A stretch of DNA of 53,969 bases from Oscillospiraceae bacterium (GTDB lineage Bacteria; Bacillota; Clostridia; Oscillospirales; Oscillospiraceae), in contig JAFTXW010000029.1 in the NCBI GenBank assembly GCA_017461445.1, forward strand, positions 1-53,969, in the 5' to 3' direction. The notes beneath the pieces are model-generated. The model was not told the origin of the DNA. It saw only the letters and a list, made by a program, of their open reading frames with translations, and ran no database searches. A program made the position numbers and the translations under genes. Below are positions 222 to 2,280 of the stretch, piece after piece; within the stretch, counting starts at the first letter, position 1, and each line of letters begins with the position of its first letter.

Positions 222-1520
222 TCATGGTAAACCATTGGCCGCTGGATTATCAAGCAAATTCCCCTTCTCATTAAAGCGCGATCCGTGACACGGGCAATCC
301 CAAGAGTGCTCTATGGGATTCCATTTCAATGCGCATCCCATATGCGTACAGCGAGGCTTCGTTGGGGTTAGAAGATTCACCGTTGCCTCAAAAGCATTAT
401 TCAAAAGCTGTCCCCTCAGGATCGATCTTGAAGGCGAAAAAACCTGTGTCCAAGGATTCTCTCTTCCCTGCACCAAATCAACAAGGATCATTGCAGATAC
501 CATTGCGGAGGTCATGCCCCATTTATTGAAGCCGGTTGCCACATAAAGATCCGGTGTTCGTTTACTGTATTGTCCGATATATGGAATCCCATCCAGCGTC
601 ATACAATCCTGCGTCGCACACCGGCAAACCTCACGGGCACCTGGATAATAAATTCTTGTGAACCTTTCGAGTTCCGCCCAGCCGCCGCCCTTCTTTCCAG
701 TTCGATGACCTCCGCCACCAAGAAGGAGTAAATCACCATAGTTACGAAACGAAAGACCGTTTTCAGCAGCATCAAGGAACATACCGTCGACCTGCGCCGC
801 ATTTTCCAACGCCAATACATAAGAGCGCTGCTGGTACATCTTCAAGAAGTAGCTACCATGCTTATTAAGGATTGGGAAATGGGTGGCGATGATAATTTTA
901 GATACTGTGATTTTGCAATAGTCCGTGATTACAGTATGCTCTGAAAATTCACGTGCTGCGGTATGCTCATATATGCGTAAGTCCTTTGCGAGTCCGGCGG
1001 CCAGCTTCAGCGGATTAAACTGTGCCTGTTTGCGGAATCGAATTGCTCCTTCCACTGAGAACCGAAATTGAATGTTCTTTGTAAATTCTACAGGGATTCC
1101 CAGATGTGACAATGCAGCTATCTCAGCATTCAGATCATGATTTGACTCTTTGGAATAGATATAATTATCTTTCCACTCAAAATCACACGGGATTGATTGG
1201 CTTAATTGATAGTATGCCTGAATCGCTTCTTCATTTGCTTCATAGTATTTCCGTGCTTTCGCCGGTCCGAACATCCGTAAAATCTTTGCATAGATACAAC
1301 CATGCTGAGATGTGATTTTGGCAGTTGTATTTCGGGAAACACCACAACAAATTCGGTCCGCTTCAAGTAGTGCATAGTCAACACCTTCTCTGGCCAATCT
1401 GTGGGCACACAGGATGCCAGCCAAACCGCCACCAACGACGAGAACATCCGTTTTCAGATCTTGCTCTAATCGGCCGAAAGTTGGCATCTGCACATCATTT
1501 GTCCATACTGAATTATTCAT
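222..1520 (-). CDS. FAD-dependent oxidoreductase with C-terminal Rieske [2Fe-2S] domain
   Basis: Two-domain cytoplasmic redox protein of 432 residues. The N-terminal half is a DAO-type FAD-binding domain: a beta strand leads into GGGLAG at about residues 30-35, followed by an acidic residue ending the second strand (LLEAD). The C-terminus is a Rieske domain with the full C-x-H...C-x2-H ligand set (Cys391, His393, Cys409, His412) plus the two extra cysteines that form the usual disulfide. The chain stops soon after the domain, slightly short of many homologues. ATG at 1520 is preferred over the in-frame GTG at 1529 because GGTGA sits seven bases before it. The family is common in Firmicutes but its substrate is unknown; related proteins resemble glycine/D-amino acid oxidases. 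It is a single gene with hairpin terminators around it. Confidence 0.9.
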   Translation of the reverse strand: MNNSVWTNDVQMPTFGRLEQDLKTDVLVVGGGLAGILCAHRLAREGVDYALLEADRICCGVSRNTTAKITSQHGCIYAKILRMFGPAKARKYYEANEEAIQAYYQLSQSIPCDFEWKDNYIYSKESNHDLNAEIAALSHLGIPVEFTKNIQFRFSVEGAIRFRKQAQFNPLKLAAGLAKDLRIYEHTAAREFSEHTVITDYCKITVSKIIIATHFPILNKHGSYFLKMYQQRSYVLALENAAQVDGMFLDAAENGLSFRNYGDLLLLGGGGHRTGKKGGGWAELERFTRIYYPGAREVCRCATQDCMTLDGIPYIGQYSKRTPDLYVATGFNKWGMTSAMVSAMILVDLVQGRENPWTQVFSPSRSILRGQLLNNAFEATVNLLTPTKPRCTHMGCALKWNPIEHSWDCPCHGSRFNEKGNLLDNPAANGLP

Positions 1521-1604
1521 TTTTATCACCGAGTATAGTATCTGTTTATTATTTCAATCTATCACTTTAGTCACGATTCTTTCATAAAAACAAAATCTTT
1601 TGGC

Positions 1605-1632
1605 TTGCATTTTTATCAAAATCTGCTATAAT
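1605..1632 (+). promoter_or_regulatory. sigma-A type promoter of the gene-free repeat locus
   Basis: TTGCAT at 1605-1610 and TATAAT at 1627-1632 are separated by 16 bases. It is one of the best promoter matches in the window, yet no open reading frame of useful length lies downstream on the plus strand. The expected start point is near 1639, at the first base of a small AAGGA/TCCTT hairpin. Confidence 0.75.
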
Positions 1633-1811
1633 ACAGATAAGGAAACCACTCCTTGTAGTAAGATTTGCTGGTAGCTGGTTGATACGATTTTGATACTATA
1701 AATCGTGAGACTCCGTAGACTGTAGAGATTTATCCCCTGTTTTTCACGAAAAATCTGGCAGTTTATCACGCAAAATAACCATTGCAAATTTGTACTTAAG
1801 CGAGTGGGAAT

Positions 1812-2032
1812 AATTTAATTGTTGCGGCAAAATCCGTTTTCACTGAAGACGTATAGCTAACATTTTCTAGATAAGCCTTGAAGGATTCATCCTTTGAGGC
1901 TTATTTTTTGCGCATAGAGGCCGAAAACCTTGTAAAATACGTGAAATCTATCAATAATATTTTTGTTTTATCGTCATGGGCATTTTCCTGTCCAGCCAAA
2001 GAACTGAGCGAAAAATGGTTTGCCCCATGACA
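1812..2032 (+). repeat. tandem structured repeat, copy 1
   Basis: First copy of a ~219-bp unit. Shared blocks with copy 2, in order: GCAAAATC (1827), TAGCTAA, TCTAGATA, a hairpin, TTTTTTGCGCATA, CCGAAAACCTTGTAAAAT, AATCTATC, TTTTATC-TCATGG, GCCAA-GAAC, GCGAAA and ATGACA (2027-2032). The hairpin is a 15-bp stem (1871-1885 with 1890-1904) with two internal G-U pairs. TCATGGGCA at the start of the last third can pair with TGCCCCATGA at its end. Confidence 0.8.
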
Positions 2033-2250
2033 TTGAATTGTGCTTGCAAAATCTGTTTTCGCTGAAACTGATTAGCTAAATTTTTCTAGATAGACCTTGA
2101 AGGGTTCGCCCTTTGAGGTCTATTTTTTGCGCATACAGACCGAAAACCTTGTAAAATCAAGCAAATCTATCTATAAATTATGAGTTTTATCATCATGGTC
2201 AAATTGTGAGCTGCCAATGAACACTGCGAAACGCGGTTCATCCTATGACA
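2031..2250 (+). repeat. tandem structured repeat, copy 2
   Basis: Second copy, offset by 218-219 bases from copy 1. Its hairpin (2090-2104 with 2109-2123) has a UUCG loop. Relative to copy 1 it differs at three stem positions, each matched by a compensating change on the other arm (AAGCC/GGCTT becomes AGACC/GGTCT; GGA/TCC becomes GGG/CCC). The stem, the T-run and the GCGCATA that follows are otherwise kept. Confidence 0.8.
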
Positions 2251-2252
2251 AC

Positions 2253-2280
2253 AAAAAAGCGTTGCACTGCAACGCTTTTT
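2253..2280. terminator. bidirectional intrinsic terminator
   Basis: AAAAAAGCGTTGC and GCAACGCTTTTT form a stem with an ACT loop, flanked by A- and T-runs on both sides. It lies between the plus-strand repeat locus and the minus-strand PepSY gene and can end both. Confidence 0.85.

Follow-up and report, generated by a model that had tools for sequence, protein, structure and literature searches.

Two tandem terminator-bearing repeats beside a guaA attachment core in an Oscillospiraceae genome: probable solo terminal modules of a Tn7-like family

Organization of the locus

The window, which is the whole 53,969-nt stretch of DNA analysed (contig JAFTXW010000029.1 of genome G000), starts at the first position of its contig and contains a promoter-like site, a paired repeat, an attachment core, two direct repeat units with a hairpin in each, and a perfect inverted repeat, arranged in this order (Table 1).

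Table 1. Features around the attachment core and the two repeat units
Feature	Position	Strand	Basis
Promoter-like site, TTGCAT, 16 nt, TATAAT preceded by TG	1605..1632	+	sequence
Paired repeat TGATAC-GATTT-TGATAC, 122 nt before core	1680..1696	+	putative integrase-arm site
Attachment core GAGTGGGAATAAT, stop codon TAA at 1811-1813	1802..1814	+	as at guaA 3' ends
Unit 1, 213-bp putative mini-element, TGT...ACA	1820..2032	+	conserved ends
Terminator-like hairpin with T-run in unit 1	1871..1909	+	fold -19.3 kcal/mol
6-nt spacer TTGAAT between units (cf. TTTAAT left of unit 1)	2033..2038	+	sequence
Unit 2, 212-bp putative mini-element, TGT...ACA, right half divergent	2039..2250	+	conserved ends
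Terminator-like hairpin with T-run in unit 2	2090..2128	+	fold -21.5 kcal/mol
Perfect inverted repeat of 13 bp, arms 1 nt apart, with A-run and T-run	2254..2280	.	sequence

The core of the window is identical to the published att core of a guaA island. As described in the available part of the report, both attL and attR of the guaA genomic island of Vibrio fluvialis (GIflu-1) consist of this sequence (PMC13418153), and guaA 3' ends also serve as sites for ICEs in streptococci, according to the accessible part of PMC4701971. The locus resembles guaA islands and ICEs in its core; among the relatives, integrase-type ORFs lie a few kb from the unit loci in G043 and, truncated, in G115. It differs from them in the repeat units, which are unmentioned for GIflu-1 and the streptococcal ICEs in the available portions of these two papers. 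The stop codon of guaA (...GAGTGGGAATAA) directly precedes the unit region in both G094 and G043.

These letters of the guaA end recur at 1802-1813, which is their only match in the window at one mismatch or fewer. Neither a guaA gene upstream of the core nor an integrase gene is found by eye in the ORF list of the window, and G000 has its two guaA matches at E 1e-3 or better, each sharing 47% identity with the query, on other contigs. Contigs C42 (46,209 bp) and C52 (46,336 bp) of this genome each hold a 514-aa guaA with an equal score to the query and may represent one segment duplicated in the assembly.

A presumed element end left of the core

From the arrangement of its sequence motifs, we interpret the sequence as far as 1814 as the right end of an element that had integrated here. 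Paired repeats of the kind TGATACGATTTTGATAC, putative arm sites of an integrase, are situated before the core at a distance of 122 nt in the window and G074, 121 nt in G043 (C50), 119 nt in G115 and G629, and 144 nt in G654; five of the six right ends compared thus fall within 119–122 nt. An exact TATAAT lies 18–54 nt upstream of the paired repeats in five of the six, with none within 130 nt in G654, and the right ends of the window and G074, both counted among the five, are near-copies. Under a letter-shuffle null, five such TATAAT sites are reached in 1 of 2000 cases.

The sequence of G074 matches window positions 241–1814 at 92% and diverges directly after the core, beyond which it contains another paired repeat 70 nt on. 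Paired repeats are present 69–81 nt after the guaA core in 18 of 63 flank rows, on the basis of a repeat list drawn up after the flanks had been seen. Among 68 guaA-flank places in 67 genomes, 63 were examined, those near contig ends (G029, G044, G108, G200, and G060) being left out; G057 and G117 each appear in two of these rows, and L115 and L127, in which the core pattern is unmatched, are absent.

In the preliminary description, a near-consensus promoter was placed in front of the repeats. Its extended -10 element is perfect (TGCTATAAT), but the -35 element is poor (TTGCAT, 3/6) and the site is missing from a promoter-consensus scan. Furthermore, the promoter is better understood as part of the presumed element end than as belonging to the repeats, and in an excised circle it would read across the junction.

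The stretch 1639–1815 forms a rod-like fold (z -4.3, and -3.8 for the G074 counterpart), which may represent a transcript or only the DNA symmetry at an attachment site. 6S RNA, a candidate for this stretch, is rejected: the Rfam 6S candidate is located on another contig, and the G043 counterpart folds differently. The best 6S candidate of G000 scores 42.7 bits (cut-off 46.4) at C55:159643-159844.

Two repeat units and their hairpins

The repeats are direct copies (n = 2) with a period of 219, sharing an identity of 79% ungapped over 170 nt and of 75% over 219 nt. The tandem units of about 219 bp reported earlier are thus retained, but with boundaries moved from 1812-2032 and 2031-2250 to the conserved ends given in Table 1. 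Relatives keep the terminal ACA, mostly preceded by CCATG (by eye). The second inverted repeat proposed for the unit end (TCATGG...CATGA) is clear in copy 1 but weak in copy 2. Among ORFs of at least 50 aa, nothing gene-like is found in the repeat region, as originally stated: only a 50-aa ORF with a TTG start on the plus strand (1878-2030) and, on the minus strand, one ORF of 53 aa (1626-1787) and another of 98 aa (2167-2463) are listed, the last overlapping the PepSY gene.

In each copy, about 16 base pairs form a hairpin, behind which T's are found. Three stem positions differ between the copies, and the reported compensation on the opposite arm is confirmed for all three pairs (columns 65-92, 66-91, and 76-81). 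With a GC-bearing stem followed by a T-run, the modelled unit hairpin has the appearance of an intrinsic terminator directed away from guaA. The hairpin with T-run attributed to each copy is reproduced by folding, but neither window hairpin is listed by a stricter terminator scan; the same scan lists the homologous hairpin of the phage contig L183, where the T-run is longer.

Plain tandem terminators, produced by local duplication without a mobile history, would likewise display two hairpins with T-runs in one direction; we nevertheless hold this origin to be very improbable. Unit 1 is 84% identical to the G094 unit in its left half and 93% in its right half, against 78% and 73% to unit 2. The corresponding values for unit 2 are 92% to G094 against 78% to unit 1 in the left half, and 71% against 73% in the right half. 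A simple duplication of recent date within the locus is therefore unlikely. The conserved ends outside the hairpins, the occurrence of the unit at unrelated loci, and the empty site corresponding to G043 (see below) also speak against plain terminators.

The whole stretch 1639-2282 folds better than its shuffles (z -6.2, with 0 of 20 shuffles as good). This fold, the promoter-like site, and the compensated hairpin agree with the initial proposal of a tandem non-coding RNA gene whose transcript would start near 1639, but Rfam speaks against such a gene. At the gathering score, 0 matches are obtained for the whole window; at E up to 10, the stretch 1500–2400 yields 14 sub-threshold matches, none near the cut-off of its family, which are read as chance.

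Distribution and conservation of the unit

In a DNA search of 199 related genomes, matches are obtained in 10, strong ones in G000, G094, G028, and G043. A covariance model built from six copies, which are themselves among its own 11 best matches, detects 11 copies in 7 of 136 genus genomes at E 1e-9 or better (G000, G094, G043, G049, G028, G041, and G115). At E 0.01, 15 of the 136 genomes are matched; the remaining eight contain weak matches only (E 2e-4 to 9e-3), which by eye look like other terminators. In the family sample, 2 of 400 genomes are matched at E 1e-4, namely G000 and one with a weak match near an apparent tRNA gene, and no similar DNA is found in phage and plasmid records. The exact right-end pattern occurs in two records of a wider contig scan, G094 and G043, with the window's own genome possibly outside the scan. 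Its sole viral match, L064, is rejected as chance, comprising 25 nt only with no unit around it.

Selection on the hairpin, as proposed for an RNA structure in the preliminary description, is supported by the relatives. The stem pairs in 13 of 13 folded hairpins, 11 of which (all but the two of the window) were chosen by the outer-stem pattern, so that the outer stem is selected for by this choice; G016 and G017 are outside the set. Further compensating changes are present in the inner stems of G115, G041, G629, and G654, where the letters change yet still pair.

Outside the hairpin, little besides the unit ends is kept among relatives. This poor conservation, together with the small number of genomes and the G043 unit, an insertion with target duplication, argues against an RNA gene, which we regard as improbable.

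Apparent insertion of the units behind guaA

In G043, the 212-bp unit is bordered at both sides by an exact 5-bp duplication, ACAGA. When the unit and one ACAGA are subtracted, the sequence gives 32/40 ungapped matches to the unit-free post-guaA sequence of G120. The core-to-paired-repeat distance is 286 in G043 and 69 in G120, and the difference of 217 equals 212 + 5. If the two units are removed from the window together with their 6-nt spacer, the core comes to lie beside the inverted repeat at 2254-2280, and the joined sequence aligns, with small gaps, to the post-guaA sequence of G117 with a score of 31.0, which is reached by 0 of 2000 random right flanks. The inverted repeat is probably the native guaA terminator, displaced together with the core. 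The exact 5-bp duplication is confined to one of eight units (G043), being absent from the window copies and the other five.

At loci with a core, the left end of the unit is directed towards the core, and the first TGT of the unit follows the stop codon of the core after 7 nt in 8 of 11 loci, 6 nt in two, including the window, and 14 nt in a single locus; in this count, G016, G017, G654, and G091 are assigned by eye, G629 supplies two rows that depend on each other, and at least five copies lacking a core or a right end (G049:C8 twice, G043:C50:59954, L183, and G041) are outside it.

Eight units can be delimited by their TGT and ACA, the other copies possessing no clear right end. Compared with interior stretches, the inverted similarity of the ends is clear in three of these eight. 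End-repeat scores exceed those of shuffles in G094 (p 0.0018), G043 (p 0.011), and window unit 1 (p 0.017), and are not significant in window unit 2 (p 0.41) and G115 (p 0.15). G043 is not one of the three that stand clear, as its end-repeat score is equalled by 27 of 132 interior stretches. The 242-bp unit of G629 has an inverted end similarity of 70% over 46 nt.

The right-end pattern (up to three mismatches) is found in the 136 genomes in units only, in 4 genomes, with no parent element. The left-end pattern (up to two mismatches) occurs at 31 places, consisting of five units and 26 places with two mismatches, and at 13 places for the reversed control. No right end, hairpin, or core is found in the 3-kb loci of 25 of these 26, and one had no locus. 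By these end patterns, no complete parent element with matching ends is delimited in the genus.

In addition, TAGAG is located directly after the terminal ACA in G094, G115, G049:C8, G629, and L183; the mini-element model gives no account of it. Around the unit/TAGAG junction, 36–66 nt are similar in G094, G115, and G049. In G049 and L183, a common GTTTATTCTA is located directly before TGT.

Association with TnsABC-TniQ genes

In G094, the unit is followed, after 276 nt, by a short ORF that is tnsA-like by position (no Pfam match), and the proteins downstream contain Mu-transposase C-terminal, TniB, and TniQ domains. The distance from the unit to the tnsA-like ORF is 525 nt in G629, which belongs to another family, and 201 nt in the phage contig L183. 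All three share the order of unit, TAGAG, repeats with CCCAAAAA or TTTTTGGG, and tnsA-like ORF. G091 has a longer TGT...ACA stretch of 699 bp, separated from its tnsA-like ORF by 243 nt.

Relatives of TnsB are present in 16 of 397 genomes searched and in two viral contigs, with identities of 53% in G629, 60% in G091, and 71% over residues 3-342 in L183; none is found in G000, the genome of the window. A search for the far end of the G629 element within about 118 kb gives many one-mismatch pattern matches, none of which is judged an end. In G011 (C15, about 243343; L186 and L204), a TnsB relative (54%) is located downstream of an apparent IMP dehydrogenase gene (by eye), not guaA.

Compared with Tn7-like transposons, which combine TnsA-TnsB-TnsC with TniQ/TnsD selectors, the G094 unit is similar in having TniQ, TniB-type AAA, and Mu-transposase C-terminal proteins beside it, and the TnsB relative of G629 occurs in the gene order of G094. 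The insertion just past the 3' end of a conserved gene and the 5-bp duplication in G043 also correspond to Tn7-like transposons as presented in the available text of PMC10293859. Unlike these, the unit itself is gene-free, and in G629 and L183 the tns genes have phage lysis genes in their vicinity. The word guaA is not found in the available main text of two Tn7 surveys (PMC10293859 and PMC8649781), and a search of mostly non-subscription literature, which provides weak evidence of novelty, found no report of Tn7-like transposons with TniQ at guaA or GMP synthase.

Prokaryotic MITEs, the subject of the review PMC10969869, provide a second comparison. The units are likewise short, gene-free, and end-repeated, with a target duplication in one copy; they differ in their few copies, near-fixed target site, built-in terminator, and the weak end repeats of several copies.

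Proposed origin and role of the modules

The repeats of the window are best explained, with moderate confidence, as two solo terminal modules (mini-elements) of a TnsABC-TniQ Tn7-like family, each equipped with an intrinsic terminator. Such a family would insert 6–7 nt downstream of the guaA stop codon, with TniQ presumably choosing the guaA site and TnsB acting on the unit ends. The module would be delimited by TGT...ACA with imperfect end repeats and contain an intrinsic terminator oriented away from guaA. At the core of the same guaA 3' end, recombination of an integrated element would have left the right end of that element, with its outward promoter, on one side of the modules (left), and the guaA terminator would have been displaced to the other (right).

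The main rival to the mini-element reading derives the left half of the unit from the guaA terminator region, carried at one end by integrative elements so that guaA stays terminated. The right half would then be an element end, and the tandem would result from repeated integration at the core instead of transposition of a 213-bp module. This alternative, which we consider rather unlikely, would account for a 139-bp block (core, left half, and terminator) found at both ends of a 28.5-kb stretch in G629 with 94% identity, the second copy lacking the right half. It would further suit the left halves with no recognisable right end in G041, G049:C8:274-413, and G043:C50:85980-86171 (by eye) and the many different sequences that follow guaA 3' ends across the genus. 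Evidence against it comes from G043, with its exact 5-bp duplication and the corresponding empty site, from the inverted resemblance between the left and right unit ends of G629, G094, and window unit 1, and from the abutting units of the window, between which a second core is absent. The second left half of G629 (L209, reverse strand, about 14206) is followed by a LysR-type regulator-like ORF (by eye).

If the repeats are solo terminal modules, the module terminator would act in vivo, stopping transcription from guaA or the outward promoter before the sequence behind it, and in full elements it would shield the transposase operon located behind the terminator. The likely job of the unit is thus to keep guaA and outward-promoter transcription out of the element. 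In L183, a promoter-like site (TTGACA-17-TATACT, 11/12) about 21 nt upstream of the unit reads into it before the tnsA-like ORF, a strong site that would also favour an RNA gene; at a lower threshold, the number of sites found in L183 is no more than in shuffles.

On this explanation, an apparent new RNA becomes a record of competition at one chromosomal address, where a DDE-transposase family and tyrosine-integrase islands use one guaA 3' end and a transposon-derived module imports its own terminator. If true, the modules would mark past insertions and show how site-specific transposons keep read-through out of the gene they target and out of the genes for their transposase.

A more extended picture, speculative and in its entirety unlikely, comprises a guaA-homing TnsABC-TniQ family, some members being transposable phages whose tns genes have lysis genes nearby, in which a terminator/attenuator module of 210-240 bp at the tnsA end is placed between incoming promoters and the transposase operon. 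Such a module would possess two working ends and move or persist alone, giving rise to solo and tandem copies at the core of tyrosine-integrase islands.

Phage lysis genes occur near genes of the TnsABC-TniQ type in L183, G629, and L201, possibly transposable phages with a Tn7-like module, with endolysin matches in L183 (IMGVR_UViG_3300022660_001020) and G629 (L205) and a weak holin match near the tns genes in G629. Meanwhile, two reverse-transcriptase matches are present in L183, and a 598-aa ORF near tns-type genes in L201 (IMGVR_UViG_2854395284_000001) is cell-wall hydrolase-like by eye.
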